From IMG/VR virus record IMGVR_UViG_3300037264_007278, positions 1 to 33,792 of that record: a stretch of DNA of 33,792 nucleotides; one strand, 5' to 3'. Source of the DNA: a virus. Below are positions 1,066 through 31,626 of this stretch, in pieces. Made by a program: the position numbers and the translations under genes. How positions within the stretch are numbered: the stretch's first letter is position 1; each line of letters starts with the position of its first letter. The notes below the pieces were generated by a model, which saw nothing but the letters and a program-made list of their open reading frames with translations, was not told the origin of the DNA and did no database searches.

Positions 1066-1460
1066 ACCAATCTGTTGTTGCCTGCTATTGTTATCCCCGA
1101 CCTAACAGCTCGTTGTTGTAGGACGATTTGCTCACCTCTTGCTATGAGCTCCTGGTAGGCCTCTTGGTCTTCTTTAGGCAGTTCGGTTAGGAGCTGAACA
1201 GCTGTGGGTTTAACGTAGAGATGCGATTGCTCCCACGCTAGGCTTACCCCCAAGGGCAGGGCGGTCACATTGTGCCGTATGACTGGTTGGTGGGTTCTTT
1301 CGTCCATCATAGTCATGTGCTGGTCTATCAAAAGCAGAACTGGGCTTAACTTGATGGTGGACCCACATAGTTTTGCTAGTTCGTGATCCGCCGGTACTAA
1401 CCGACCTATGTAACTGTTGCTACCGCTGTAGGCGACTAACCAAAAAGTGAGGTCTTGCAT
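1062..1460 (-). CDS. hypothetical protein (132 aa)
   Basis: This small leftward gene lies between the helicase and the glycosylase. The ATG at 1460 has a strong ribosome site (AGGAG, 7 bases upstream) located inside the end of the helicase gene, so the 25-bp overlap is believable. The stop overlaps the next start as ATGA. The protein is soluble and mixed alpha/beta, with no recognisable motif. Its last third (PKEDQEAYQELIARGEQI) should be helical. Operon position suggests a DNA-metabolism accessory, but that is only context. Confidence 0.65.
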   Translation of the reverse strand: MQDLTFWLVAYSGSNSYIGRLVPADHELAKLCGSTIKLSPVLLLIDQHMTMMDERTHQPVIRHNVTALPLGVSLAWEQSHLYVKPTAVQLLTELPKEDQEAYQELIARGEQIVLQQRAVRSGITIAGNNRLV

Positions 1461-3178
1461 GAGCGTACTCCTGGGTGTCCGTGTAACTCATAGGTGAATG
1501 GCCCACCGCTCTCTATGGGCCAACTACGCAGATGACTGCGAGTCTTTTGGCACATACCAATTACTGGGCCTATGTTGTGCTCGATGATAAGTAACAAGGG
1601 TGCTTTCTTGCCGCTCTTAGCCCGCTCTGTGCGGCCCTTTATCTGCTGAAGTGACCACTTATTGGAAAAGGGCATGGTGGTAATGACCGTGTCTAGAGCG
1701 CGGCTATCTAAGCCCTCTTTACCGTACTTGGTGATAGCAAAAACCACCTGTTTCTCAGCAATGTACTTATAGCGCACCGAGGGCTTTATGTCGTAGATCA
1801 TTAGACCACCAGTTGTTAGCTGTACCTGCAGGTTCTTTAGATACTCGCGCTGTCTACGGTTGTGCTCTTGGGTTATCTTCGCTTGAATCTCACATTGGAG
1901 CAGGCACTGCTCAAGTTCTGCTTGTTCTGCTAGTAATGCCCCCCGGTCCACGACCGCCAAAGTGCTAGAAGCGAGTTTGGTATTTACGGCGGCTAGGGCT
2001 TTCTGTTTGGCGTGCTTCTTCTTCTTTGGCAGGTCCAGTGGTGTTAGCACCTCTCCTACGTCTTGTGGGGTTGGCACAGGGATGTCTGTATAGAGAGCTG
2101 TAACCCCATTCCACATGGCGCACAGGTTCACGGCTTCGTCTACAGAGTTACAAAGAACAAGTACCTTTCTACCCTCTTGAACGGCAGTACCAACACGTGC
2201 CAAGACATGATGGAGATGCTCTGCCCACTGTCCGTAGTAAACAGCCAGCATGGACAGATGCAACTCCCCACGCTTATCCCGTATTCGGCAGCCTGGCCTG
2301 GTCTCGTCTGGCGTAAGCCCCGTCCAGTCAAAGGCAACTCTGGCAGTTAGGTCCTGTGTGAGGTTCTTGTGAAGAACTGGGCCAACGTGCATGTCGTAAA
2401 TGACGTGCAGGCCGTCTACACGCTCAGGTGTAGCAGAGAGCAACAGTCGGTACCCGTAGAATAGCTCTGCTACAGGGGCGAAGGTAGGGGCGCTAATGTG
2501 GTGCCCCTCTTCGAAGATAGCAATGCGGAAGTGCCTGCGAAAGTCCTCCCCAACCGTCGATGCTAGCTTTCCCAACGTGTGGTACGTTGCTAAAACTATG
2601 TCCTTCTTCCAGTCAAAGACGCCGGCTTGAACCCTGCCTACACCGGTTGGCACTACTAAGAGGCTCGCTATCTCTTTGGTCCACTGTTCTAGTAGCTGGG
2701 TGTTGTCAACAACTACAATAGCTGGACCGCCGTACTTAGCCACGAAGTCGAGAGCGATTACAGTCTTTCCTGCGCCGCAGGCTAATTGCAGGATGCCACT
2801 ATGCCCCGAGAGCAGAGCGTGCATGGACTGCTGCTGCACACTCTTTCCAGTGGGTTGGAGCACATCAATGCCGTCCTCTACTTTCCAGGTATGGTCTAGT
2901 AGGACCTTGCTGGCGATAGAGGAACTAACAAGATCTTGTGGTCTGCAGTCCACGATTGGGAAAGGTAGCCCTTCGAGCCGCCAGAAGTAGCGTGGCACTA
3001 CTAAGTGGTGTGGTGTCTCCCTCCACAAGGTTAGCGTGCGAACCTTATTTTCCAGGCGTGGATCTTGAAAAGTGTAGGTGAGGGCGCTCTTCACGCCCTC
3101 GACACTCACTAACGACTTCGGTATCCAGAGATGTGCATCTAGGTACCCCTGGTCTGGTCTACGAAGCACTATTCTCAT
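1436..3178 (-). CDS. superfamily 2 DNA helicase (XPB/UvsW-like)
   Basis: A 580-residue ATP-dependent helicase or translocase. Visible motifs: ACGAGKT Walker A at 133-139; motif Ia-like VVVDNTQLLEQW at 155-166; motif Ib-like VLATYHTL at 195-202; motif II as FEEGHH at 222-227, where DEAH is more usual; SAT motif III at 248-250; motif V region ITKYGKEGLDSRALD at 482-496; and motif VI QQIKGRTERA at 511-520. The order matches the ERCC3/UvsW type of SF2 proteins used for branch migration or recombination-dependent replication in phages. A Lys-rich, coiled-coil-like segment of about 75 residues (roughly 380-455) interrupts the second RecA domain. The start at 3178 overlaps the previous stop as ATGA. 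The exact DNA substrate cannot be told from sequence. Confidence 0.88.
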   Translation of the reverse strand: MRIVLRRPDQGYLDAHLWIPKSLVSVEGVKSALTYTFQDPRLENKVRTLTLWRETPHHLVVPRYFWRLEGLPFPIVDCRPQDLVSSSIASKVLLDHTWKVEDGIDVLQPTGKSVQQQSMHALLSGHSGILQLACGAGKTVIALDFVAKYGGPAIVVVDNTQLLEQWTKEIASLLVVPTGVGRVQAGVFDWKKDIVLATYHTLGKLASTVGEDFRRHFRIAIFEEGHHISAPTFAPVAELFYGYRLLLSATPERVDGLHVIYDMHVGPVLHKNLTQDLTARVAFDWTGLTPDETRPGCRIRDKRGELHLSMLAVYYGQWAEHLHHVLARVGTAVQEGRKVLVLCNSVDEAVNLCAMWNGVTALYTDIPVPTPQDVGEVLTPLDLPKKKKHAKQKALAAVNTKLASSTLAVVDRGALLAEQAELEQCLLQCEIQAKITQEHNRRQREYLKNLQVQLTTGGLMIYDIKPSVRYKYIAEKQVVFAITKYGKEGLDSRALDTVITTMPFSNKWSLQQIKGRTERAKSGKKAPLLLIIEHNIGPVIGMCQKTRSHLRSWPIESGGPFTYELHGHPGVRSCKTSLFG

Positions 3179-3792
3179 TTTGGAGGCTGCATGATGGTGG
3201 GCTGCGGTCCGGGTTGTGGTGCTGGGTGTGACCGAAGTGGGTTATGGTCGAAGAAGCTAGCTGTGGAATGGCCCAGTGCTTTTGCCATCGACCTGCCGAC
3301 TTCAGCTAATAGTCTAGCCCACCAGGGCGTTCCATCTAGAGGTTCCGGCACGGCCAGGTAGGTCGGCATCTGAGCTCCGGGTTGCTGATAAGGAAGCGGC
3401 ACCTGTTGTGGTCCTTGCTGAGCCACCCAGGGTGCTGCATACCCAGTAGTTGGGTACCCAGTCATAGGTGGCTGCATCGGCCTGAAGCCCGGAGCTGGTT
3501 GTGCTAACGGGAACAGCGCTGGAGGTGGTAGTGGCGGGGCTTGTAGCTGCGGTGCTTGCGGTTGTGCTGGGATTGGCTGGAATGGTTGTTGGTAAGGTTG
3601 GTACGGTGGGTATTGTGGGTAGCTCACTTTGTTTTCCTTGGCTGCTCTACACCGGTCATAGGCTGAACATCTCTTACGTAGGCTACTCTCGTTGTCTGGG
3701 TCGATGTATGCAAGGTCAAAACCACCCGCACACTCGACACGGTTTTGCTCCCAGAGTCTGCCGAAGCAACTCCAGGATGCTGGATTACTCAT
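3175..3792 (-). CDS. Cys-motif protein with long Pro/Gln-rich tail
   Basis: First gene of the left operon (205 aa). ATG 3792 has GGAGG about 5 bases upstream. Residues 1-50 hold four cysteines (C9, C21, C42, C48) in a compact region with CFGRLW, ECAGGFD and RCSAYDRC, which looks like a small metal-binding or disulphide-like domain. Residues about 57-150 are almost wholly Pro, Gln, Tyr and Ala (repeats of the PYQPYQQPFQP kind) and should be disordered. The C-terminus contains a short helical patch (WWARLLAEVGRSMAKAL) and another Pro-rich end. I cannot name the family. The architecture suggests an adaptor or DNA/RNA-binding tether, but that is inference. Confidence 0.7.
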   Translation of the reverse strand: MSNPASWSCFGRLWEQNRVECAGGFDLAYIDPDNESSLRKRCSAYDRCRAAKENKVSYPQYPPYQPYQQPFQPIPAQPQAPQLQAPPLPPPALFPLAQPAPGFRPMQPPMTGYPTTGYAAPWVAQQGPQQVPLPYQQPGAQMPTYLAVPEPLDGTPWWARLLAEVGRSMAKALGHSTASFFDHNPLRSHPAPQPGPQPTIMQPPK

Positions 3793-3812
3793 AGCGCCTC
3801 CATAGTTCGTGT

Positions 3813-3831
3813 CTCAGAGTTCTTATCCCTG
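3813..3831 (-). promoter_or_regulatory. shared 19-bp element upstream of leftward operon 1
   Basis: Read leftward, the element is CAGGGATAAGAACTCTGAG, 20 bases before ATG 3792. The same sequence with one change occurs at 13313-13331 before the other leftward operon. It contains a GATAAG core that could act as a -10-like box and a partial dyad (CAG.G...CTCTG). Because it heads both leftward operons, a promoter or operator is the simplest reading; which polymerase uses it is unknown. Confidence 0.55.
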
Positions 3832-3864
3832 AACCTGCTGTATATTCCCTTCCTCATGTGGGCG

Positions 3865-3892
3865 TTGTACCCTTGCAAAAGAGCCCTATTAA
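3865..3892 (+). promoter_or_regulatory. possible rightward sigma70-like promoter
   Basis: TTGTAC at 3865-3870 and TATTAA at 3887-3892 are separated by 16 bases, about 20 bases before the start of the first rightward gene. The -35 box matches the consensus at three positions and the -10 box at four, so this is weak. The region from 3793 to 3913 has no gene and lies between divergent operons, so a rightward promoter must be here or be supplied from elsewhere. Confidence 0.3.
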
Positions 3893-3913
3893 CGTACTGA
3901 CTCTGGAGTGTGC

Positions 3914-4411
3914 ATGGAAAAGCTCAGTGGATTGATCCTGGATTACTATGATGACACCTCCGGGGAGGTTCTTAGGGCTATCGAGGGGTCAGACGAGCTG
4001 GTCAAATCAGCTGAAGTACTAGGTACGGAGGAGCGCAGCAGGTTGCCAGACGACACGTTCGCTCTAGTGTTGTTGGACGGGACCAACTCCCTCCAGAAGT
4101 TTTCTATGCTGGATGAGGGGAACACTCGGCTCAGCATCGAATACTTCTTGCGGACTGGCCACAAGTTACCGGAGGAGGCACAAAAGGTTGCTGCAGAGAA
4201 TCTCCTTATTGGCTGCGGTTGGTACGGAATAAAAACCCCGCCGGAGTTGGAGAAGATTGCTATCGGAGCACTCGGGTTGTTGGGCGCTGGGTTGGTTCTG
4301 CCGGGAGTTGCTAGCGAGGCTTCCGGTAACCTCAAGGCAGTACGTACTGCTGGCGGTGCTATAATTACACCCAAGCAGATTAAGTTGATACGGATGCAGA
4401 CGGGAGTTTGA
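3914..4411 (+). CDS. hypothetical virion-operon protein with helical module
   Basis: I chose ATG 3914 (165 aa) because GGAG lies 5 bases upstream; the in-frame GTG at 3908 would overlap that ribosome site. The central part has the order LPDDTFAL, a basic/hydrophobic strand, then LSIEYFLRTGHKLPEEAQKV and AAENLLIGCGWYGI. This resembles a helical module seen in some phage structural or protease-linked proteins (pattern FAL, then aromatic-Pro/Ser, then YF, then P-helix, then GI). The C-terminal third has a hydrophobic Gly/Leu stretch (IGALGLLGAGLVLPGVA) that could insert in a membrane or pack in the capsid. It is the first gene of the virion operon ending with the portal. Exact function unknown. 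Confidence 0.65.
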   Translation: MEKLSGLILDYYDDTSGEVLRAIEGSDELVKSAEVLGTEERSRLPDDTFALVLLDGTNSLQKFSMLDEGNTRLSIEYFLRTGHKLPEEAQKVAAENLLIGCGWYGIKTPPELEKIAIGALGLLGAGLVLPGVASEASGNLKAVRTAGGAIITPKQIKLIRMQTGV

Positions 4412-4414
4412 TTG

Positions 4415-5311
4415 ATGCACGAGCTTGAAGACTACCTGCTGGGTAAGAATGCAGAGACGAGTGGTACAGACTTGATGCCGTACAGCCCATCACCGGCCAG
4501 TAAAAATAAGGATCAGTCACCTACCAAAACGATCCCAAAGGTGGGCTCGACGCAGGTTGGTAAGGTACGTCCCCACGTGGATGTGACTGACAAAGAGGCG
4601 ACTAAGGCGGCCGAGTCCTCGGAAGTACGGTTTTTAGCATTGCCTAGTCTGGGGCGTTACCCGTTAGATAGCTATGAGCAGGTGAAGACTGCCTGTACGT
4701 ACTTCCAGGAATGGGGTCGACGATTTACTCCTGAGCACAGACATGAATACTGCGCCAATCTTGTGAAGAGGGCTAGCTCCTTGGGGATCTCTGTTACTGA
4801 GGAGATCTCTAAGTATGGCTCTGTCACATATGCATCGTCTGCAGAGCTGGAACTTGCTCTTGCTGGTAGGGCGAGTGTTACGTCTAGCGATGAGCATAGA
4901 GCTCTGCTCGAGAGTATAAAGGTCGCCCAGCCAACGGTTGAGCCAGAGGTGTTCGCCAGGTTGCTATCGGAATTCGATAAGTTGGCGGGGATAGCTCACT
5001 TGTACGATGCTGAGATATACGACCCGTTCTTTACCACATTCGGGGTTAAGGCTGCTACAGATACGGGTGTGAAGTCAGAACTGTCCGATTCCCCTAGCGG
5101 TGCTCTCATCATCGGTAATGACTATGTCACCGCTAAGAACCTGAAAGAGTTTGCCCTGACGGGGTTGGCGTCACTGCCAATGTACAAAGAAGAGTTCTAC
5201 ACGAAGTTTCGAAAGGACCCGATAGGCACTTTCAATTCGTTGCCGCTAGACCAAAAGAAACAGATAGCCAGGCTAGCTTCTAGCCTTACAGAAGATGTAG
5301 CCTCCACGTGA
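4415..5311 (+). CDS. hypothetical virion-operon protein, same module as preceding gene
   Basis: ATG 4415 lies 3 bases after the previous stop with GGGAG about 8 bases upstream; a TTG at 4412 is a less likely start. The 298-residue protein begins HELEDYLLGKNAE, then a low-complexity Ser/Lys/Pro stretch to about residue 60. Residues about 70-135 hold FLALPSLGRYPLDSYEQV, ACTYFQEWGRRFTPEHRH and SSLGISVTEEISKYGS, a clearer version of the helical module in the preceding protein. The C-terminal half is helical with no motif I know. The two neighbours probably arose from a common module. Probably virion or assembly-related by position. Confidence 0.68.
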   Translation: MHELEDYLLGKNAETSGTDLMPYSPSPASKNKDQSPTKTIPKVGSTQVGKVRPHVDVTDKEATKAAESSEVRFLALPSLGRYPLDSYEQVKTACTYFQEWGRRFTPEHRHEYCANLVKRASSLGISVTEEISKYGSVTYASSAELELALAGRASVTSSDEHRALLESIKVAQPTVEPEVFARLLSEFDKLAGIAHLYDAEIYDPFFTTFGVKAATDTGVKSELSDSPSGALIIGNDYVTAKNLKEFALTGLASLPMYKEEFYTKFRKDPIGTFNSLPLDQKKQIARLASSLTEDVAST

Positions 5312-6153
5312 GGAATGGTAGTGTGCAGGCACCTACAGGGACTCACTTCTTAGCGGCGTTACGTTCATTGCGGGGGAGCCCTGCCACTCTGACGGCAATA
5401 GCAGAGCAGGGGTTAGCTACTGAACCTGGGTTAGGGGAAAGTGATCCTACGCAGGCACTTGAGACTATCGAGGAAGACACTGAGATAGCGAAGACCTCTG
5501 CAGAGGCTACTTCTGGGGCAGTGACACGTAGTAACTTCTTTCAGCATCCTGATGCTCATCCAGTAGCTTTAGACCTGTTGCTGCTACAGCATTATGGGCC
5601 TGAGTGGCTGACCTGGGAGCCAGAGGTTTTGGAGTGGCGCATACCACAAGACTTTCGGTCGCCAGACGTTAGCTCGTTGTGCATGACTAAGATCCAGGCC
5701 ATGAAGACGTTACATTTCGTGGATGCTCCCTGGGAGAATTGGGAGGTATTCCTGTGGGTGTGCATGAGCGTGAATGGCTTCTACCCAGATTTTGAGATGA
5801 TGCAGGCTCCAACTGCTGCCCAGACTATGGTGGCTATCGACATCTTCTTCAAAGTGCGCCAGGACGTGCAGTGGAGTGAAGAAATCAAGGTATACCTAGG
5901 AACTGTGTGGCGTGCTGACGGCATCCTGCAGCCGATACCCCCCGCTGACTTTTTTGCGATTGACACTGAGGGGCTGCCACTAGACATTGAGTCTGTGAAA
6001 GCTCGCTGGCCAGAGGTTCTCCGGTCTGGGGTAGCCCCCATTGTGGAGACTGTGGAAAATGAGCAATTAAGGCGACTGCTCGTAGTGCACCGGCATCTGC
6101 TGGCAGATCGGGCTAGACTCGACGGGCAACTACCTCTGGTACTGGATGGCTGA
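5308..6153 (+). CDS. hypothetical protein (281 aa), conserved-looking
   Basis: Starts at GTG 5308, overlapping the previous stop as GTGA. A second GTG at 5323 has AGGA 8 bases upstream and could be the true start. The first ~90 residues are low in complexity (Glu/Thr/Ala), then comes a compact, Trp-rich domain (HYGPEWLTWEPEVLEWRIP, WENWEVFLWVCMSVNGFYPDFE) and helices to the end. The aromatic-rich core looks like a folded, conserved domain, perhaps a neck or head-completion type, but I cannot name it. It is placed between the module-sharing genes and the portal. Confidence 0.62.
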   Translation: MRNGSVQAPTGTHFLAALRSLRGSPATLTAIAEQGLATEPGLGESDPTQALETIEEDTEIAKTSAEATSGAVTRSNFFQHPDAHPVALDLLLLQHYGPEWLTWEPEVLEWRIPQDFRSPDVSSLCMTKIQAMKTLHFVDAPWENWEVFLWVCMSVNGFYPDFEMMQAPTAAQTMVAIDIFFKVRQDVQWSEEIKVYLGTVWRADGILQPIPPADFFAIDTEGLPLDIESVKARWPEVLRSGVAPIVETVENEQLRRLLVVHRHLLADRARLDGQLPLVLDG

Positions 6154-7231
6154 GCTCACCAAAACATCGCTTGCGTCTTTCCACACCGAGTTGGTGAAGG
6201 AGGCCCTGGGTGGAGATCTTCTCCGCTTGGCCCGCAATGCTTCGCGGTCGGTGCGCGGCGCTGTCACCAGCCCAGCTACCCACCGTGTGGCAGGTGGCTT
6301 AGCAGGTGGCGTGGGGGCAGGTGGGTTAGCAGGTGGTGTGTTGGGCGCTGGCTATGGCGGTGCCAAGGGTTACCAAGAAGCTAGGGCGCAAGGACAGACG
6401 GTCGGTGGAGCCCTGAGAGCTGGTTTATCTGCAGGCACACGTCAGGGAGTCCGCGGTATAGGACAAGGGGCCCTTGTGGGCGGAGCTCTAGGTGGGGTGG
6501 GCGGAGCTCTCTCTAAGAGGGTGCCTACTGCTTTGGCACAAGCACCCCTTGTAGGAAGTGGGGCCAGATTTGGCCAGAGGCAACTTCATGGGATTACCGG
6601 ATGGACACCGGAGGCTGGCGTACGGTCTATTAGGGGTGGGGCTTACGGAGCTGAGCGTGGTGTTGAAGAGGCCCTTGGGTCTTTGGAGAAGGCCCATCAA
6701 AAAAGTAGGGGTGTAGCAAGTGCGCAGAGGGGATTGGACCGGGCAGTTACATATAGAAGGGCTGCTGGGCGTGCCGAAGAGTTAGGGCTTACCAGTCTTC
6801 CAGGGTATGCAAAGGCACTTCGGAAGGACCCTGTGGGGGCGTTGAAGGCGGGCTTTGGGGAGCAGTGGCATGGAGCCACTGGAGTACCCAGGGTTTTGGC
6901 GTATGGTGGCTCTGGAGCTCTTGTGGCGGGGGAGGCTTTGAAGGATGACCCGGGTGGCAAAGGTAGGCTGGAGCGTGCTGGTAGAGCTTTGGGTAGTACC
7001 TTACCTATGTTGGCTGGGCCACTCCCTATAGCTGCGTCTCTTGCGGCTACTCCGGCTATGGCTGCAGTGGGTGGATTACCCGGCAAAATCAAAGAAAGGA
7101 TAACCCGAAGAAAAGCGTCTGGGCACTTAGCAGCCCCGCCTTCCTTGGAACCGGCGAATGCGACTACCCAGCCTTCGGGATACCTGTATGCTGACAGGGG
7201 CCCAGGCGGCATGGAAGGACCTGTCGGATGA
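6146..7231 (+). CDS. glycine-zipper virion-type protein
   Basis: 361 residues, overlapping its upstream neighbour by 8 bp and the portal start as ATGA. Residues about 47-75 and 105-122 are dense in Gly/Ala/Leu/Val with GxxxG spacing (GGLAGGVGAGGLAGGV), typical of glycine zippers that pack in membranes or oligomers. Later hydrophobic runs (LPMLAGPLPIAASLAATPAMAAVGG) could also insert in a membrane. Basic residues flank these runs. Such proteins in phages are often packaged head or ejection proteins, but no catalytic domain is visible. A 27-bp-period DNA repeat encodes part of the first zipper. The product class is inferred from composition and position before the portal. Confidence 0.68.
   Translation: MAELTKTSLASFHTELVKEALGGDLLRLARNASRSVRGAVTSPATHRVAGGLAGGVGAGGLAGGVLGAGYGGAKGYQEARAQGQTVGGALRAGLSAGTRQGVRGIGQGALVGGALGGVGGALSKRVPTALAQAPLVGSGARFGQRQLHGITGWTPEAGVRSIRGGAYGAERGVEEALGSLEKAHQKSRGVASAQRGLDRAVTYRRAAGRAEELGLTSLPGYAKALRKDPVGALKAGFGEQWHGATGVPRVLAYGGSGALVAGEALKDDPGGKGRLERAGRALGSTLPMLAGPLPIAASLAATPAMAAVGGLPGKIKERITRRKASGHLAAPPSLEPANATTQPSGYLYADRGPGGMEGPVG
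6290..6340 (+). repeat. 27-bp-period tandem repeat in glycine-zipper gene
   Basis: A 24-base unit, GCAGGTGG[C/G]TTAGCAGGTGG, followed by [C/T]GTG, occurs at 6290-6313 and 6317-6340 with two mismatches. It encodes repeated AGGLAGGV and looks like a short in-frame duplication. Confidence 0.75.
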
Positions 7232-9174
7232 GTATTGTAGGCGGTAGCTTCGGATTCTCTGCGGGTCCTGCCAACGCTATGCGTTTCGCTCCAACTCGTG
7301 GGCGGATCGGTGGGGCGCCGATGCAGGGGGTTAATTACCCGAGTCCGTTTTTCGATGTCGCGCATACATACTTGCCGGTCACCATCAAACAGATGTTCCG
7401 GTGGTGTCGCTACTACTTTCTAACCAACCCACTGATAAACGCGACTGTCTTTAAGCTGTCCGAGTATCCGGTTACAGACATAGTCGTAGACCACCAAGAT
7501 GCGCAGGTCCGTAAGCGTTGGACTAGTTACTTCCAAGAGCACTTGGCGATACGCCCGTTTCAAATCGAGTGCGGGTTGGACTACCACGCTTACGGTAACT
7601 CTCTCGTAAGTATAGGGTTCCCCTTCAAGAAGTTTCTACGGTGTGCTTCTTGTGGTTTCCAAGAGAGGGCTGACAAGATACGGCAGCACTGGACCTTTAC
7701 CAACTACGCGTTCAGGCTTTCGTGCCCCGGTTGTGGAATGACCTCAGAGTCAGAAGCTAAGGATGTGTACTACAAGAATGCTAGCGGGATAAACCTGATC
7801 CGCTGGAACTGCGAGCATGTTGAGATCAACTACAATGATATAACTGGCGAGAGCACTTACTTCTACACCATCCCACCGGCTGTGCGGAACGACGTGGTGA
7901 TTGGGAAGAAGGATGTAGTTGAGTCTGTTCCACAAGTCTTTATACAGGCGATGAGGCAGCAGAAGGGGGTGGTGTTCGCGAAGGATAACTTCTTCCACAT
8001 GAAGCGAGCCACACTAGCGCAGCAAGATCGTGGTTGGGGTATCCCACTGTCGCTGCCAGTTCTGAAGGATGTTTTCTACCTGCAGCTAATGAAAAAGGCC
8101 CAAGAGGCCGTGCTGCTTGAGCATATGTTGCCACTTCGTGTCTTGTTCCCACAAGCTGGCTCCGGGACAAGTGACCCGTACGTGACCCTGAACCTCAGAG
8201 ATTGGAAAGACCATATTGCGGCTGAGATAGCGCGTTGGAGGCTCGACCCACTATATATTCCGATTTTGCCGCTACCCATAGGTCATCAATCTATCGGTGG
8301 GGATGGTAGAGCACTGTTGCTGACTCAAGAGATTCAAGTGTGGTCTGAGCAAATCATGGTAGGAATGGGGGTTCCAAAAGAGTTCCTCCTTGGAGGGCTT
8401 TCCTATGCGGGCTCATCTGTCTCTATGCGTATGCTGGAGAACGCCTTTCTCAATTACATTCTTCGGCAGAAGCAGCTAGCTAACTGGGTCATGAAGATGG
8501 TCGCTGCCTATATGGATTGGCCTGTGGCTCGGATACGATTCAAGCCCTTCAGAATGGCGGATGATATACAGCGCAAGGCTTACCTGTTCCAACTCAATCA
8601 AGCCCAAAAGATCTCTGATACGACACTCCTCGCTGATGCAGACCTTGCGCAGGATGAGGAGGATGAGATTATGCTGCAGGAGACCGATAAGCGACTCGAG
8701 TCCACGAAGAAGCAGCAACTCGCACTGGCTGAGGTACAAGCAGAAGCTCAGCTTATTCTGGCGAAGGCGCAGGTTAAAGCTCAGCAAGTTTCGCAAGAAG
8801 CGCTATCTGCACCCGTTGCGCCAGGTGAGCCTGGAGGACCATTGGATGGTATGCAGAGTCAACTAACTGCTAAGTCTGATATGGGGCTCAAGCAACCTGA
8901 TGCTATGCCAGGGAGAGGTCAGATGGCTGGGGCTTCGATTACTGACTTGGCGAATCTCTATGCACAACAGCTTTCGGCAGTACCCGAAAAGCAGCGTGAG
9001 CTCTCGCTGCAGACCATCGAGGCGCAAAGTCCAGAATTGGCGCAGCTCGTAAGGCAGATCCTTAGCCAGCAAGAACCTGGGCAAGATACTACTGCAGGGG
9101 CTGCAGCCTCAGCTGTGGATATGCGCCCGTTACCGGAGCAACGAAGCCCAAGACGCATGGCTGCTGCAATCTGA
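7228..9174 (+). CDS. portal protein with inserted zinc ribbon
   Basis: A 648-residue portal: the dodecameric channel at the capsid vertex through which DNA is packaged and ejected. Family-like features: an N-terminal segment with FRWCRYYFLTNPLINATVFKLSEYP near 50-75 and YHAYGNSLVSIGFP near 117-130, as in many portals; NFFHMKRATLAQQDRGWGIP near 255-273; and QIMVGMGVPKEFLLGG with SYAGSSVSMRMLENAF near 375-412, followed by a helical wing/stem and an Ala/Gln/Glu-rich coiled-coil-like tail (about 480-540) and a low-complexity end. Unusually, two CxxC knuckles, C139/C142 and C166/C169, form a zinc-ribbon-like insertion. The start overlaps the previous stop as ATGA. It ends the rightward operon, and a hairpin follows. 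Confidence 0.82.
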   Translation: MSIVGGSFGFSAGPANAMRFAPTRGRIGGAPMQGVNYPSPFFDVAHTYLPVTIKQMFRWCRYYFLTNPLINATVFKLSEYPVTDIVVDHQDAQVRKRWTSYFQEHLAIRPFQIECGLDYHAYGNSLVSIGFPFKKFLRCASCGFQERADKIRQHWTFTNYAFRLSCPGCGMTSESEAKDVYYKNASGINLIRWNCEHVEINYNDITGESTYFYTIPPAVRNDVVIGKKDVVESVPQVFIQAMRQQKGVVFAKDNFFHMKRATLAQQDRGWGIPLSLPVLKDVFYLQLMKKAQEAVLLEHMLPLRVLFPQAGSGTSDPYVTLNLRDWKDHIAAEIARWRLDPLYIPILPLPIGHQSIGGDGRALLLTQEIQVWSEQIMVGMGVPKEFLLGGLSYAGSSVSMRMLENAFLNYILRQKQLANWVMKMVAAYMDWPVARIRFKPFRMADDIQRKAYLFQLNQAQKISDTTLLADADLAQDEEDEIMLQETDKRLESTKKQQLALAEVQAEAQLILAKAQVKAQQVSQEALSAPVAPGEPGGPLDGMQSQLTAKSDMGLKQPDAMPGRGQMAGASITDLANLYAQQLSAVPEKQRELSLQTIEAQSPELAQLVRQILSQQEPGQDTTAGAAASAVDMRPLPEQRSPRRMAAAI

Positions 9175-9184
9175 GGCTAAGAAG

Positions 9185-9202
9185 TAGGGCCCGAAGGCCC
9201 TA
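9185..9202. terminator. bidirectional hairpin between convergent operons
   Basis: A perfect 7-bp stem, TAGGGCC and GGCCCTA, closes a CGAA loop. On the opposite strand the loop reads C(TTCG)G, an especially stable tetraloop. It lies between the portal stop (9174) and the convergent gene end (9217). A short T-rich run (TTATTGT) follows on the plus strand. The palindrome suits termination from both sides. Confidence 0.72.
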
Positions 9203-9216
9203 TTATTGTGGTCCCC

Positions 9217-10575
9217 TCACGTTGTGTTGTAGCTATCTCGCACTTCTTGGCTGTCACTCATGATGATGGTGGTCCCCCAGTCTGCGGGCACTCGTTGGTA
9301 GCTTGACGGCACGATGCACCACACAACCTCCATTCGCTTAGGAGGTTCATCCGGAGCTGTGCCGTCACCGTCAGTGAAGTAGATAACCAGATCGGGTCTT
9401 GGCCGCATTGCCTCAAGAGCTTTTAGGGCTGGCCTGAAGTCTGTGCCACCTCTACCTGTTACGGGCAGAGTGGGTATATCCCTCACCCGGATGTATTGCA
9501 TGCTCGCTACGTCTGCGTCTGCATCTAGAAACAGGGCCTGGTCTATGCCTAGTTGGGTTAGGACACTGCAAGCCTCCGTGCGTGCAGTGAGGATTTGTTC
9601 CTCACCCATCGAGCCCGAGCTGTCCTCTATCAGTGCGACTTGGGTCTTCTGGCTGATCAGCCCTGGTCGCAGCATGCCCCGGGCGTAAGATCTCTTGGAT
9701 GGTCTTTTCAGTGAGAAGTCAGAATGCCCAGCCATGATGCGGCCAGTCGATTTGCGAATTACGTACCGGAGGATTTCCCTCCAAGGCACTAATGGCGCCT
9801 GGTCTTCCCAGGTTAGGAGGTCCTTTAGGAAGTCTGGTGTGCTGCCTCTGCCCCTTCGTTCATGTGCCTGCAGGGCCCTAATACTCTCTTTGCGGATGTG
9901 GGATACCTCTGCGCTACTTCTCCCATGGGCGGCATTGAGCTTTTCCTCTAATCCCTGCGAGAGTGGGTTGCCCGCGATGCTGCCACAACCGCCCGCGAAT
10001 ATCTTGTTCTCTATCTTTTGGCCTCCTACGGAATAGGGTTTTCCACCGGCACCTCCCTGCTTACCGCCAGCGCCCTTACCGTTTTTAGGGCCCCCCTTGT
10101 TGCCCATGGGCTCTTTTGGGAGAGCTTTCAGTAAGTCGTAGTATTCCTCCATAGTCAGCCCAGCCACAAATTGTGCGAGGCCCTTTTCTCTGAATTTCTC
10201 ACTTGTGCATGCCCAGCTAGGAAGTTCCCACGTCCAGGCCGTATTTTTTATGCTGAGCATGTCATCGTTGATCGGTATGTCTGCAGCGACGTTGGCGAGA
10301 TCCTTGTCCTCCATACCGAGAATCCGGTCCATACCCCGTAGTATGTGCATGCATTCGTGGGCCAGACACGAAGCTCGCATCTTTACTGAGCTGAGGCTTA
10401 GGAACCACTCAGGGTCTATCGCGCAGACCAGACTTGTGGTGACACCCAAGGTTTTTAGGTCTGGTACCCACACAATCCTGAAGGCATACACCGTAGAAGA
10501 GAAGTACGGTGCAGCCATCTTGAGATAGGCCCTTGCTTCGGCAAGGGCCATATGTGCCTCTCTGTAATCTCCCAT
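9217..10575 (-). CDS. VWA/metallopeptidase-like protein (COG3864/DUF2201 type)
   Basis: 452 residues. The N-terminal half carries an HExxH metal site, AHECMH at residues 72-77 (H73, E74, H77), as in the putative metallopeptidase domain of this family. A Gly/Lys-rich linker (about 158-185) follows. The C-terminal half is a von Willebrand A-like domain with the MIDAS signature DSSGS at 318-322, GGTDFRP at 376-382 (T378) and YFTDGDG at 399-405 (D402). In bacteria such proteins pair with MoxR-type AAA+ ATPases and act as chaperone-like remodelling systems; here the partner ATPase is immediately upstream, joined by TGATG. The phage target is unknown. Whether the peptidase half is active cannot be read from sequence. 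Confidence 0.87.
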   Translation of the reverse strand: MGDYREAHMALAEARAYLKMAAPYFSSTVYAFRIVWVPDLKTLGVTTSLVCAIDPEWFLSLSSVKMRASCLAHECMHILRGMDRILGMEDKDLANVAADIPINDDMLSIKNTAWTWELPSWACTSEKFREKGLAQFVAGLTMEEYYDLLKALPKEPMGNKGGPKNGKGAGGKQGGAGGKPYSVGGQKIENKIFAGGCGSIAGNPLSQGLEEKLNAAHGRSSAEVSHIRKESIRALQAHERRGRGSTPDFLKDLLTWEDQAPLVPWREILRYVIRKSTGRIMAGHSDFSLKRPSKRSYARGMLRPGLISQKTQVALIEDSSGSMGEEQILTARTEACSVLTQLGIDQALFLDADADVASMQYIRVRDIPTLPVTGRGGTDFRPALKALEAMRPRPDLVIYFTDGDGTAPDEPPKRMEVVWCIVPSSYQRVPADWGTTIIMSDSQEVRDSYNTT

Positions 10576-11840
10576 CAGTTATCCAATTGGGTGGCTACGT
10601 ACTTGAGCATGCCACTTTCCGCAAGCCAGTAAATTAGAGGTTCGCACGCAGCCTTGAGCTTTTCGTTGTCGTGCCCCTTCCTAGATAGGCCTGCCGTAAT
10701 CAGCGTTTGAGCAGGTCCGATGACTAGGTCTGGCATTCCTGCTTCTTTGACAGAGGTCAGAAACTTCCAGCCAGCAGCCGCGAGCTCGTACTTCTCTTTG
10801 GGGTCTACCAGCGTTGTGATATAGGCTGTCACCGAGGACAAGACTGCTAGGGTGAGGTCCAAGCGACTGTTGTCTGGCTTCCAGCCTTTCACTAGTACCT
10901 GCAGTGGGGAGGGGAGATCTGCCGACTTTGACCAGGTAAGGAACTCCGCGGCTGGGCCCTCACCAACGCAACCTTCGAGGAAGACCGACTCCAGTGTCTT
11001 GTCGTACCCCAATGCATTTATGGTGGCTACGGCTCTGCAGGCCATCGCCCAGGTTCGCGGAGAGGCCCAACAGTAGCCAGCTTGTGGGTGTGACGACAGG
11101 GGCTGCCGGTGCAACATGACTTGGCGGTCGTGCATGAATCCAGCAAACAACCCCTTTGCATGGCTGTACGCCATGTCCCAGTGGGCTTTAAGCTGAGTCT
11201 CTGACAGGGTCACGTCTAATTGCCGGTGGACGTTTTCTGAGAGGAGCCATGCTATCCAGGCTGAGGGGGTCGGAGATCGTGTTTGGAAGTGAGCCATGCG
11301 ATTGGCCATCGGGGCCTCTAAGGCCCAGCCACCAGCAGATAACTTAGGTGGATTGGCCGCGCCCAGTACGCGGATTCCGGGAGAGAACTGTACGTCTCCA
11401 ACGATGCGGTCGTTCACCATGCCTAGCATGGCACCTTGTGTCGCTGGCGTTGCGCAACTCATCTCGTCAATGAAGAGGATACCTCTCTTAGCCGCGTTTA
11501 ACTTACGCACTTGGGGCAACAGGCATTCTACGCGCACTTCGCCGTTGCCTACTGGGATTGGGACGCCAGAGAAGTCCTCTGGCTGTTTCTGCCCTGGCAG
11601 AATGACTTCACAGATGAGGCCTGCGCTGGCGGCCACCTGTTTGATCCTGTCTGACTTTGCTATGCCTGACCCTCCCCAAAATATGCTGGGCAGTCCCCAC
11701 GTGCAGGTGGGGTCATGCGGGTTGCCCATGGGTGTCATGATTGACACGGCTGCAACTTCGGTGAACTTGTCGGAGACGTCAGGTACTGTGGCATCTGTAA
11801 TGCAGGTCTCTACTACGGCGGCTTTACTTGATTTTGCCAT
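10575..11840 (-). CDS. MoxR-type AAA+ ATPase
   Basis: 421 residues. Walker A reads GGSGIAKSD at 56-64 (K62, S63), Walker B ILFIDEM at 121-127 (D125, E126), sensor 1 AANPP at 161-165 (N163) and a likely arginine finger in MANRMAHF at 178-185 (R181). The QPEDFSGVPIP segment at 86-96 is the typical MoxR/RavA pre-sensor region. Residues 190-421 are a helical lid. The stop overlaps the start of the VWA protein as TGATG, so the two are made together, as MoxR/VWA pairs usually are. Such ATPases remodel or load metal-binding or multi-subunit complexes. The start at ATG 11840 follows the previous gene by 8 bases and lacks a strong ribosome site. Confidence 0.88.
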   Translation of the reverse strand: MAKSSKAAVVETCITDATVPDVSDKFTEVAAVSIMTPMGNPHDPTCTWGLPSIFWGGSGIAKSDRIKQVAASAGLICEVILPGQKQPEDFSGVPIPVGNGEVRVECLLPQVRKLNAAKRGILFIDEMSCATPATQGAMLGMVNDRIVGDVQFSPGIRVLGAANPPKLSAGGWALEAPMANRMAHFQTRSPTPSAWIAWLLSENVHRQLDVTLSETQLKAHWDMAYSHAKGLFAGFMHDRQVMLHRQPLSSHPQAGYCWASPRTWAMACRAVATINALGYDKTLESVFLEGCVGEGPAAEFLTWSKSADLPSPLQVLVKGWKPDNSRLDLTLAVLSSVTAYITTLVDPKEKYELAAAGWKFLTSVKEAGMPDLVIGPAQTLITAGLSRKGHDNEKLKAACEPLIYWLAESGMLKYVATQLDN

Positions 11841-11848
11841 GGCTATTC

Positions 11849-12475
11849 TTACTGTCCTTGTATCACGGGTAGTGCGTATCGATTCTGCAGGAGCATGCAG
11901 CGGTCTTTATGCGCCTGACAACCATGCCGCCAGCAACGGCTTTGCGTACCGTGGGCACATTCATTGCTTTGCTTCACTGGTTCTTCCCATAGCTGCAAGA
12001 TCTTGCCGTGCAGTACGTTCTCACAGGCAGTGCAGATTATTGTGGGGTTGTTGTCTAGCATCTCAAAAGTGTTGAGCCCATCTGTGCCGTTCGGTGTTCG
12101 CTTCGATCGGTGTATCTCACCGAAGGCTGCTAGCAGGATAACCTCTCCTGAGCGGATGCTGCTTTTGCAGACCCCACAGTCACAGATCCCGTAAGGATCC
12201 TTTATGCTGCCTGCGCTAGATCTAGCTTCCTCCAGTTCCTCGAAAGTATCTTCCCAGGCCGAGGATGGAATGAATTGCGGTGTGTAGAGCAAATCGTCTT
12301 TTTCGTCAGTGACGGCTAGTTGTGGCTGTAACCTACCATCATGTGTTTGCGCGGCCACGACTACTGTGATGGCTAAAACCCCCTCAACGTAGGCGATGCT
12401 TTCGCCAGACACTGGGCAGGTTAATCCCGTCTCTGCCAAAGAAGTGACCCAGTTGCTATCCGTATCTTCCGTCAT
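11849..12475 (-). CDS. hypothetical Cys-rich protein
   Basis: I use ATG 12475 (208 aa), which follows the previous stop by 8 bases with GGAG further upstream; a GTG at 12523 would add 16 residues and overlap the previous gene by 40 bp with no ribosome site. Cysteine groups are CPVSGE near the start, CDCGVC in the middle, IICTAC later and CAHGTQSRCWRHGCQAHKDRC near the C-terminus. These pairs suggest one or two zinc-binding folds. I do not recognise a named family. It is co-transcribed with the MoxR/VWA pair and may be a partner or substrate, but that is only context. Confidence 0.62.
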   Translation of the reverse strand: MTEDTDSNWVTSLAETGLTCPVSGESIAYVEGVLAITVVVAAQTHDGRLQPQLAVTDEKDDLLYTPQFIPSSAWEDTFEELEEARSSAGSIKDPYGICDCGVCKSSIRSGEVILLAAFGEIHRSKRTPNGTDGLNTFEMLDNNPTIICTACENVLHGKILQLWEEPVKQSNECAHGTQSRCWRHGCQAHKDRCMLLQNRYALPVIQGQ

Positions 12476-12483
12476 CAGGTTTA

Positions 12484-13062
12484 TTATCTCCACTCCAAGC
12501 GGTTTCTTTCTACTCTCTTCCACCTGTCAGAGATGGTCTCTAGTCTGGTGTCTGGAGCTACACCTGTACTGTTGTCTCTGTCCCAAAGGAGCGTGAACAG
12601 TTCCTCTACGTCGTTGTTGGCATCAAGGTGCACCCGCCGTACTATCTCAAGACCGGAAGGTAGAGCTCCAGCATTGCCACTATTACGCAGTCTTAATTCA
12701 CGCTCGAATAGGTCATCGATGAGATCCTCCTCATCTGCGCAAGGGCCGTACCACTCATGGTCTTCTGGACTTGGGTAGCTGCGGTGTAACCAAGAACAGT
12801 GCTGTCCTGGGAAAGCGTAGCCCAGCAGAACTTCTAGGTCTCGCTGGTTGCAGAAACTGACGAAGCCGTGTTGGTCCATCAGTTTAGCGCGCACACCGCC
12901 TAAAGCTCGCCCGGCCACTGGGGCGAATAGCCATTGGATGGTCCATACTCGCCAAGGTTCTCTGGGATCGCACACTCCATACCCTGATAGCCCTAAGGAG
13001 TCTGCTAACATTCTAGTACCCGGTAGGGTGTCTAGATGTGTCGTGTACGGATTTAACAGCAT
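12484..13062 (-). CDS. hypothetical protein (192 or 175 aa)
   Basis: Soluble alpha/beta protein with several Trp and an acidic middle (CADEEDLIDDLFERELRLR); no recognisable motif. Start choice is open. ATG 13062 has GGAG only 1 base upstream, too close to be efficient, and would overlap the small membrane ORF by 50 bp. ATG 13011 begins 1 base after that ORF's stop, giving 175 residues and a tidy tandem. The stop (12484) is 8 bases before ATG 12475 of the next gene. It is part of the MoxR/VWA operon. Confidence 0.6.
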   Translation of the reverse strand: MLLNPYTTHLDTLPGTRMLADSLGLSGYGVCDPREPWRVWTIQWLFAPVAGRALGGVRAKLMDQHGFVSFCNQRDLEVLLGYAFPGQHCSWLHRSYPSPEDHEWYGPCADEEDLIDDLFERELRLRNSGNAGALPSGLEIVRRVHLDANNDVEELFTLLWDRDNSTGVAPDTRLETISDRWKRVERNRLEWR

Positions 13063-13144
13063 ACTCCGCCATTTGAGTTTCTTGCGCCCACAGCACTAGC
13101 CCATTGAGGACACCGGTAATGAATGCGAGAAGGAAGAGGATCAT
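13013..13144 (-). CDS. predicted 43-aa single-pass membrane peptide
   Basis: A short leftward frame begins at ATG 13144-13142, overlapping the upstream stop as ATGA, and ends at TAG 13015-13013. Residues 2-19 (ILFLLAFITGVLNGLVLW) are an uninterrupted hydrophobic helix, followed by a polar tail (QETQMAEYAVKSVHD). It fills the only gap in this otherwise gap-free operon. Its 3' part overlaps the next gene if that gene starts at 13062, but not if it starts at 13011. A small phage membrane peptide could be a spanin-, holin- or superinfection-type factor, but no specific role is shown. Reality of the gene rests on coupling and the membrane helix. Confidence 0.5.
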   Translation of the reverse strand: MILFLLAFITGVLNGLVLWAQETQMAEYAVKSVHDTSRHPTGY

Positions 13145-13305
13145 TCTCTGGCTTTCGGCTCTTCCTCATCTTCTTTCACCTCTTCGGCTGTAACCTCTTT
13201 TGGCGGCCCTGCTTTGCCTAGAATTTCATCTAGGGCTGACTCCAAAGCCTGCCCTGAATTGGCGAAAGCTTCCCCCTCATCTTCGTCTGGTTTGATTGGT
13301 TCCAT
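13141..13305 (-). CDS. acidic 54-aa peptide, first gene of leftward operon 2
   Basis: ATG 13305 has a strong ribosome site (GAGGAG, 4-5 bases upstream), so the longer open frame up to 13392 is not the real start. The 54 residues are highly acidic (PDEDEGEAF, AEEVKEDEEEPK) with a short helical centre (SGQALESALDEILGK). Small acidic phage proteins often mimic nucleic acid or bind host proteins, but nothing here is specific. The shared 19-bp element lies 7 bases upstream and actually runs into the ribosome site. Confidence 0.6.
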   Translation of the reverse strand: MEPIKPDEDEGEAFANSGQALESALDEILGKAGPPKEVTAEEVKEDEEEPKARE

Positions 13306-13312
13306 CGTACTC

Positions 13313-13331
13313 CTCAGAGTTCTTATCTCTG
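13313..13331 (-). promoter_or_regulatory. shared 19-bp element upstream of leftward operon 2
   Basis: Read leftward: CAGAGATAAGAACTCTGAG, identical to 3813-3831 except for one base. Here the arms CAGAG and CTCTG form a perfect 5-bp inverted repeat around a 7-base centre. It is 7 bases before the acidic peptide's ATG and overlaps its ribosome site, so a protein bound here could also affect translation initiation if transcribed. Candidate promoter or operator. Confidence 0.55.
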
Positions 13332-13355
13332 CCACTTGCAGAGGTTTGCAGCACT

Positions 13356-13367
13356 GTTGTATCCTAG
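13356..13367 (+). promoter_or_regulatory. possible rightward element before RNA polymerase gene
   Basis: GTTGTATCCTAG here matches GTTGTACCCTTG at 3864-3875 in 10 of 12 bases. Both lie 36-50 bases before the first gene of a rightward operon and 25-33 bases from the leftward 19-bp element. A weak TTGCAG (13336)/TATCCT (13360) pair overlaps it. With only two copies this may be chance. Confidence 0.28.
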
Positions 13368-13391
13368 ATTGAGCCAACCCTTTGGTAACCA

Positions 13392-29907: not shown

Positions 29908-31626
29908 ATGTTCTACAAGTACAGTCACTTCAGTGGCTCAGGTGACTGGGGGCCTACTGTAGTCCCCTTACTGGGGCCTGCTGCTAAGCACTTTGAAAAG
30001 GTTGCTTCTGCGCATCTTATGCCAGAAGTAGCGCGCTATATAGCTAGCCTTCGACCAATACAGACGTCGCAGTATGTGCTCGTCAATGCTATGGGCGCGA
30101 GCGAATATTACAGCAGCAACGTGAACGGCGATGCTTTCCCAGAAGTTGCTCTGTTGCACAGACCCGATGACTGGACCGGCAATCCTATACTGGACCGGAT
30201 AAAAGCACAGAAGTGGCCGTACGGTTACCCCACGTTTTACTCAGCCCACCCATTTGCACATCATCAGAATAAAGATCCCAGCCGTGCTTTTGGGGAGGTA
30301 GAGTTAGCTGTCTGGAATCCGCACATGCGTCGTGTAGAGCTCGTTGTGCGGGTGGACCACGATAAATGTCATCAGTACGGTGGCACTGGGGCCTGGGATC
30401 GCCTGAAAGCTGGTGAGTACATCGATGTATCGATGGGTACTCGCGTACCGTTTGATCGGTGTTCCATATGTTCGGATTGGGGTTTGTATGCAGAAGCACT
30501 AGCCACATTCGACCCTAAGAAGCACCCATCTCCTGCCAAGGCAGTTCTAGAGTTTCACACCACTCAGAAAGCTAAAGACGGTATTGGGATTCGGGGCTTA
30601 TCGATAACCAGAAAAGATTACTGCCCGCACGCACTCAAGCTGATGAACAGAATCTTGCCTGACGGTAGGAAGGTGTTCGTCTTCAATGACTTCCCGCGCT
30701 TCTTCGATATCTCTTTTGTGTTCATCGGTGCGGATAGAACAGCGAAGACGATGCTGTTCATCTTTAGTGGCGGTAAACAACTACAGTTGAAACCCTCGGT
30801 CGAGGCCTCGGAGATCTCGCTGACTGAGGATGAGAAGACGGCTGCGGTAGGCGAAGAGCCCGAGTCGAAGGTAGGTACAATCAGCAAGGACTACGTACCC
30901 AGTAACTTGGTTGATAAAGCTGTGCCTCTTCTCACGAATTGCGAACCCGACATACCCAGGGAGACCCTTGATGGTTTGGGGGCCTTCCCCTTGGAGCAGT
31001 CTCTATCCACGTTGGGCGGGGTAGGTATAGTCCTCCGTCCACGAGAGTTTCAGCGGGTAGTTTTGATTCGGCTGGGCCAAGGGGGGCTGGCGGACCAGCT
31101 AGATGCCTCGGGTAGTATATTCCCCAAGGTGCGCGAAGAGGCGCCAGTGGGGTTGTCTACAGCGAGTGTCCTACCAGGGCTTTTAGCATTGCTGCGGCCT
31201 TTATTGAGTATGCGGTCTGGCCTAGGCCCTATCATCGAACCTAGAGCTATTACCCTCTTGGGGGCTCCTCAGAAGGAGAAGGTGGCCCGTACTTCCCTTA
31301 GTACCGAACTACTGCTTAAGATTGGGGCAGCATATAACGGATACCGAGCTGAAGTTATGGACTTAGTCCCTCACTCTCAAAACTTGATTAGCGCGAGTGG
31401 TACCACCGACTCGGTGCTACTCAAACTAGCAACGGTACCCACCGTCGATATGTTTACCCCTCTTGCTGCCGGTTATCTCAAACACGCCTTTCTTGACGAG
31501 GTTGGGTTAGAGGGCAGCGAGATGGTAAAAGATCTAGGACAGGCACCCGCCGACGTGGAGAGGGGCTTCCCCTCAAAGACCGCGTATAGAAGTAATCAGC
31601 AAGTCTTTGAAGGAGTTTCAACATGA
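29908..31626 (+). CDS. prohead-protease-like protein with long C-terminal extension
   Basis: 572 residues. Residues 55-245 resemble phage head-maturation proteases: NAMGASEYYSSNVNGDAFPE at 60-79, AHPFAHHQNKDPSRAFGEVELAVWNP at 113-138 with candidate catalytic His at 118/119, and EYIDVSMGTRVPFDRC at 170-185 with candidate catalytic Ser175. CSIC at 185-188 and YCPHAL at 238-243 (C185, C188, C239, H241) likely bind zinc. A serine-protease type (S78-like) is my best guess. The C-terminal ~280 residues are helical and may be scaffold or delivery. It shares an ATGA junction with the next, scaffold-like gene. Confidence 0.68.
   Translation: MFYKYSHFSGSGDWGPTVVPLLGPAAKHFEKVASAHLMPEVARYIASLRPIQTSQYVLVNAMGASEYYSSNVNGDAFPEVALLHRPDDWTGNPILDRIKAQKWPYGYPTFYSAHPFAHHQNKDPSRAFGEVELAVWNPHMRRVELVVRVDHDKCHQYGGTGAWDRLKAGEYIDVSMGTRVPFDRCSICSDWGLYAEALATFDPKKHPSPAKAVLEFHTTQKAKDGIGIRGLSITRKDYCPHALKLMNRILPDGRKVFVFNDFPRFFDISFVFIGADRTAKTMLFIFSGGKQLQLKPSVEASEISLTEDEKTAAVGEEPESKVGTISKDYVPSNLVDKAVPLLTNCEPDIPRETLDGLGAFPLEQSLSTLGGVGIVLRPREFQRVVLIRLGQGGLADQLDASGSIFPKVREEAPVGLSTASVLPGLLALLRPLLSMRSGLGPIIEPRAITLLGAPQKEKVARTSLSTELLLKIGAAYNGYRAEVMDLVPHSQNLISASGTTDSVLLKLATVPTVDMFTPLAAGYLKHAFLDEVGLEGSEMVKDLGQAPADVERGFPSKTAYRSNQQVFEGVST

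Follow-up and report, generated by a model that had tools for sequence, protein, structure and literature searches.

The 19-bp element that heads both leftward operons of the analysed viral DNA almost certainly represents a class of promoters, judging from its sequence, its spacing and its placement in related phages. With rather less assurance, we consider it probable that these are the early or middle promoters of a clade of ~185-kb phages, read by a phage sigma factor together with the phage's own fused β–β′ RNA polymerase (RNAP).

Copies of the element in the window

The analysed DNA (the window) is a whole IMG/VR record of 33,792 bases, which is probably a fragment of a larger phage; megablast of its first 25 kb gave no match among named phages. 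The sequence-only reading had described two near-identical 19-mers in the same orientation, 20 and 7 bases before the first gene of each leftward operon, and we confirmed their coordinates, their minus-strand orientation and their distances to the leftward ATG codons (gene starts at 3792 and 13305). Both copies are located in divergent intergenic regions, at 3793–3913 and 13306–13391 (Table 1). When up to 3 mismatches were allowed, these were the only two matches in the window, vs. a mean of 0.03 matches per dinucleotide shuffle; two matches were observed in 0 of 100 shuffles. The exact 19-mer had no match outside the window in a scan across IMG/VR. Thus, what is shared with other phages is a profile and not the 19-mer itself.

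To score the window we used a refined weight matrix trained only on other phages. Four leftward sites reached at least 16 (at 13329, 3829, 1097 and 12490; scores in Table 1), whereas shuffled windows gave a mean of 0.1 such sites over 150 shuffles and none reached four. The earlier statement that there is no third copy thus holds for the 19-mer, but not for the profile, which adds two weaker leftward copies (~1097 and ~12490). A fifth leftward match, with a score of 13.1 at 30023, was left uncounted because it lies in the structural region and a match of equal strength arose in one shuffle. No rightward site in the window scored 12 or more with this matrix. For copy 1, the −35 part adds little to the score.

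Genes with family matches downstream of the window sites, i.e., those for a helicase, a uracil-DNA glycosylase and a DUF2201/VWA protein, are non-structural. The second leftward operon encodes, at 9217–11840 on the minus strand, a DUF2201 metallopeptidase/VWA-domain protein and a conserved 421-aa neighbor, both of which are present in most relatives. The first gene opposite RNAP in many relatives, as well as that at 13141–13305 (minus strand) in the window, encodes a short acidic protein, often with an MGP start and with NSG.

Table 1. Coordinates of the promoter-like elements and neighboring genes in the window
Feature	Position	Strand	Remarks
Uracil-DNA glycosylase superfamily gene	229–1065	−	PF03167, E 1.7e-21
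Third, weaker copy, GGGATAACAATAGCA	1083–1097	−	score 17.2; 18 nt before the uracil-DNA-glycosylase-like gene
Helicase gene, left operon	1436–3178	−	phrog_16 DNA helicase, E 7e-27; ResIII/DEAD
First gene of left operon, 205 aa	3175–3792	−	no Pfam or PHROG match
Copy 1 of the 19-mer, CAGGGATAAGAACTCTGAG	3813–3831	−	exact motif; score 22.3, matrix trained without the window
Putative transcription start of copy 1, G	~3815	−	predicted
−10 region of copy 1, GGGATAAGA	3829–3821	−	from sequence
Weak −35-like GGGAA of copy 1	3845–3849	−	from sequence; poor match to consensus GCAAA
Fourth, weaker copy, GAGATAATAAACCTG	12476–12490	−	score 16.8; ends just before an in-frame ATG at 12475
First gene of second leftward operon, 54-aa acidic protein	13141–13305	−	divergent from RNAP; no family match
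Copy 2 of the 19-mer, CAGAGATAAGAACTCTGAG	13313–13331	−	exact motif; score 27.0, matrix trained without the window
Putative transcription start of copy 2, G	~13315	−	predicted
−10 region of copy 2, GAGATAAGA	13329–13321	−	from sequence
Candidate rightward RNAP promoter, TTGCAG-N18-TATCCT	13336–13365	+	interleaved with the −35 of copy 2; scoring favored TTG at this spacing
−35-like GCAAA of copy 2	13345–13349	−	from sequence; 15 nt upstream of GAGATAAGA
Fused β–β′ RNA polymerase gene, 2153 aa	13392–19853	+	divergent from copy 2; PHROG RNAP beta families

A bipartite signal in related phages

The window RNAP has many relatives of 50–59% identity, some of them in records of 185–196 kb. We ran the scan of related phages relative to gene starts that the sequence-only reading had proposed, and found that the motif both recurs upstream of RNAP and clusters before gene starts. 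The same element, in the same orientation (pointing away from RNAP), was present upstream of the RNAP gene in 28 of the 30 relatives aligned; no convincing match was found upstream of RNAP in the other two (L007 and L015), which were excluded from the motif model. The aligned RNAP-upstream sites revealed a second block, GCAAG, at a constant distance, and in eight relatives of 185–196 kb the bipartite motif reads GCAAA-N15-GGGATAAGA-N4-TG. The distance from TG to the start codon was most often 14 nt with a ribosome-binding site in between, a leader that has space for little beyond this site.

For the genome-wide scan of these eight relatives we used a matrix derived from the sites found upstream of RNAP in the relatives, excluding the window. 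It gave 195 matches scoring at least 12, only a few of them training sites, vs. a mean of 38 for twenty column-permuted matrices. Of these matches, 95 had a called gene start no more than 60 nt downstream, vs. a mean of 2.2 for the permuted matrices; both near-start counts are approximate, as the genes were called with a simple script. Copies are thus found near gene starts far above chance, as for a phage-specific promoter class. With the refined matrix, 27–39 matches per genome were detected in relatives of 185–196 kb, vs. 0–10 in one shuffle each. When sites were picked on the −10 block alone, GCAA appeared upstream at a fixed spacing, with one position being A in 95% of cases, and the best −35 offset was 0 in 146 of 236 sites. 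Two elements at a fixed spacing make up the bipartite arrangement of sigma-70-type promoters. In a model-free 7-mer count on the strand opposite RNAP, GATAAGA and GGGATAA ranked first.

Strong matches were rare downstream of the RNAP start: the following 35 kb contained 5 of the 204 found genome-wide, vs. 37 expected by length, and none of the 204 was located there on the structural strand. With so few strong sites there, the promoters would serve mainly the non-structural part of the genome, a placement that suggests early or middle expression. In L003, which shares the helicase (46% identity), a consensus site, GCAAA-N15-GGGATAAGAAGAATG, lies ahead of the helicase gene. Clustering of the genes downstream of sites yielded one low-complexity supercluster and tied the promoter to only a few protein families.

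Two cultured relatives, Salmonella phage Arash and Vibrio phage D69, encode interrupted RNAPs of about 30–32% identity. They resemble the window clade in having a homologous RNAP, an orthologous sigma factor, a motif variant with the conserved TG of the start at the same place, and the same divergent layout before the portal/RNAP operon. They differ from it in the −10 element, which reads G[G/T]TATAAG...TG when given with its TG, and in a weaker (CAA-like) upstream element. The non-structural strand carries 34 of 36 variant copies in Arash and 39 of 48 in D69. In each phage 21 copies lie near starts, vs. 0–1 (Arash) and 0–5 (D69) for scrambled cores.

Candidate promoters were also observed in the rightward direction. 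The element TTGCAG-N18-TATCCT (Table 1) is suggestive of a rightward promoter of the RNAP gene. In six relatives (L005, L009, L011, L018, L034, and L038) the leftward −35 (GCAAG) reads on the opposite strand as TTGC, 18 nt before a TANNNT facing RNAP; the two divergent promoters at RNAP may share one element. A sigma-70-like class, TTGC-N18-TANNNT, was considered for the rightward RNAP promoter and not adopted: it is suggestive at the RNAP site, but the model-free 7-mer count revealed no second strong promoter class when applied to the structural strand in the soil phages. Both divergent regions of the window also share GTTGTA[C/T]CCT on the plus strand (3864–3873 and 13356–13365), the only two occurrences of GTTGTAYCC in the window. 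This sequence could mark a second class of promoters, oriented towards the rightward genes (RNAP among them). In the cultured phages, a model-free count on the structural strand detected a second class, CTAAAATA in Arash (L150–L153) and TAAAATA in D69 (L147–L149 and L154). Both are enriched upstream of structural genes and are likely to form a late promoter class; CTAAAAT is found 9 times on the plus strand of Arash, 8 times before a start.

The phage sigma factor and the fused RNA polymerase

A sigma-like protein of about 250–270 aa was found in 12 of 19 records, among them all ten that measure 167 kb or more; no sigma gene was found within the 33.8 kb of the window. The protein matches phrog_351, “RNA polymerase sigma factor”. 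Among four such proteins tested, regions 3/4 were above the cut-off in two (Sigma70_r3 and r4 in the G006 protein, r3 in that of G009) and weak elsewhere, and Sigma70 region 2 was only weak. For the predicted fold, the top 50 PDB matches were all sigma-containing entries, with a model pTM of 0.43 and poorly determined domain placement. Regions 2–4 of the sigma-70 family are thus represented in this protein, region 2 weakly. In each of the eight genomes checked, the motif stands at the head of the sigma operon, on the same strand. We rejected the stricter statement that the motif immediately precedes the sigma gene in every genome: this is the case in three of the eight (G006, G007, and G016), while elsewhere it heads the operon further upstream.

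Orthologues of this sigma factor are present in both Arash and D69 (E 4e-34 and 3e-33, respectively), and Arash, which has the motif variant only twice on the plus strand, carries one of these two copies immediately before its sigma operon gp9–gp10. A strict motif was not found before the orthologous sigma gene of D69. Both phages encode a second sigma family as well, of the gp196 (Arash)/D69_0246 type. Each isolate thus has two different sigma-70-family proteins, gp10 and gp196 in Arash and those encoded at 10995–11684 (plus strand) and 133187–133963 (minus strand) in D69; the first, of the Arash gp10 type, is orthologous to the soil-phage sigma and is located among structural genes. As two families are carried by these phages, genomics does not fix which sigma is paired with the motif.

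The RNAP β′ match was contained in one open frame in each of the 14 records tested, and no second RNAP was found in them. Residues 1131–2118 of the window RNAP match bacterial β′ (E 3e-99), and the alignment extends across the clamp-helix region, the sigma-binding site in bacteria. The clamp-helix hairpin is kept in all relatives examined, but the residues that contact sigma in bacteria are not conserved in the phage RNAP. Some RNAP genes (L027, L029, L032, and L038) reach 7.5–8.6 kb owing to long insertions, and the RNAP open frames of G014, G016, and G017 have 3259, 2493, and 2517 aa, respectively. The long insertions, several of which are in frame, are possibly inteins.

Reading of the promoter and comparison with known systems

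In the mechanism that we propose, the 19-mer would cover the −10 element and the start of a phage promoter. In its entirety, the signal would consist of GCAAA, 15 nt, GGGATAAGA, ~4 nt and TG at the transcription start, with a ribosome-binding site most often directly after. Such promoters would drive the non-structural (early/middle) operons in the clade of ~185-kb phages; a phage sigma-70-family factor would bind GCAAA and GGGATAAGA, and initiation would occur at TG. The core used by this sigma would most likely be the phage's own fused β–β′ RNAP, perhaps injected from the virion. We infer the exact starts, the pairing of sigma and motif, the core enzyme, its packaging and the timing from sequence comparisons. 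The phage core is favored because sigma and RNAP co-occur, because the clamp hairpin is retained, and because virions of phage YerA41 contain RNAP subunits and a sigma factor. The earlier guess that the element is the promoter of the phage RNAP comes close to this.

It is known for SPO1-type phages that their own sigma factors act with the host core RNAP. The same promoter could accordingly be read by the phage sigma on the host core, with the fused RNAP serving another class, e.g., the structural operons. Besides this known mode of action, the lack of conservation of sigma-contact residues in the clamp helices and the second promoter-like class that Arash and D69 show on their structural strand are consistent with such a division. 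We consider it unlikely, given that sigma, fused RNAP and motif co-occur throughout the clade and that both RNAP subunits and sigma are found in YerA41 virions (PMC7354516).

A reader other than the gp10-type sigma is improbable. The second sigma family could take this role, as Arash and D69 encode both families, or RNAP could act with a non-sigma factor as in AR9, since the phiKZ and AR9 enzymes use such factors at promoters (PMC7598289). Yet every one of the ten relatives of 167 kb or more encodes the gp10-type sigma, in an operon with the motif; the loci compared showed a gp196-like protein in G018 alone, and the bipartite spacing is sigma-like.

The sequence-only reading had also considered a host sigma promoter with a GATAAG core. 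Its type, a bipartite −35/−10 promoter, agrees with our results, but the phage's own sigma is a likelier reader than that of the host, since all relatives of 167 kb or more have a sigma-70-family gene and the motif stands before its operon. The GGGATAA −10 presumably resembles the −10 elements of group-3 (sigma-28/sigma-B-type) factors, which would point to an alternative sigma of the host. This is highly improbable, as the motif is kept across very different hosts (soil contigs, Salmonella, Vibrio) and co-occurs with the phage sigma. Finally, a repressor operator or RNA hairpin formed by the CAGAG/CTCTG arms, also suggested earlier, is hardly credible: both window copies pair 5/5 (one with a G-U pair possible only in minus-strand RNA), but conserved inverted-repeat arms were lacking, full pairing being limited to 3 of 32 RNAP-upstream-type sites (of which the window contributes two) and 6 of 204 strong sites genome-wide, and leader RNAs fold no better than shuffles, so that we regard the arms as incidental.

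Because one clade combines RNAP, sigma and an evident bipartite promoter, the question of whether the multisubunit RNAP of a phage is able to work with a bacterial-style sigma can be addressed directly by experiment. The clade in question is little studied, slightly smaller than jumbo phages, common in metagenomes and has cultured relatives; the motif allows early/middle operons to be called from sequence in its uncultured members. We found no literature on Arash or on this promoter in a search without preprints and most subscription papers. Within the literature so covered, both this class of promoters and its association with the sigma operon seem to be new.

Phages of the SPO1 and T4 type have their own sigma but no RNAP, and their sigma redirects the host core to phage-specific promoters. 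The window clade is similar in that a phage sigma would redirect transcription to phage promoters; it differs in also carrying its own core. The combination of RNAP and sigma in one phage is not wholly unreported, the precedent being YerA41, which has RNAP subunits and a sigma factor, both in virions (PMC7354516). Its RNAP is a distant relative of that of the window clade, and the likeness is drawn from the presence of a sigma, not from its sequence. Unlike for the window clade, no promoter motif is reported in the YerA41 paper (PMC7354516).

RNAP-encoding jumbo phages are described in reviews as being without sigma factors, their promoters being recognized by other means (PMC7824862, PMC7598289). 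Phages phiKZ and AR9 resemble the window clade as large phages with their own two-barrel RNAP and dedicated promoters, and the TATG at the start of phiKZ late promoters resembles the TG described here (PMC7598289, PMC7824862). In those phages, however, RNAP is divided among several subunits and exists as two sets, with neither sigma nor a −35/−10 pair. A promoter of the phiKZ/AR9 type was therefore set aside for the window clade, whose single RNAP is fused and which has a sigma-70-family protein as well as a bipartite motif. We put forward, as a tentative possibility that we lean slightly against, that the clade has a complete machine of its own: a single-chain β–β′ core and a bacterial-type sigma, co-packaged and injected, with dedicated early promoters and a sigma that is self-amplified through its own promoter. 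If so, this would be a viral multisubunit RNAP that, in contrast to the enzymes of phiKZ and AR9, still initiates with sigma as bacteria do.
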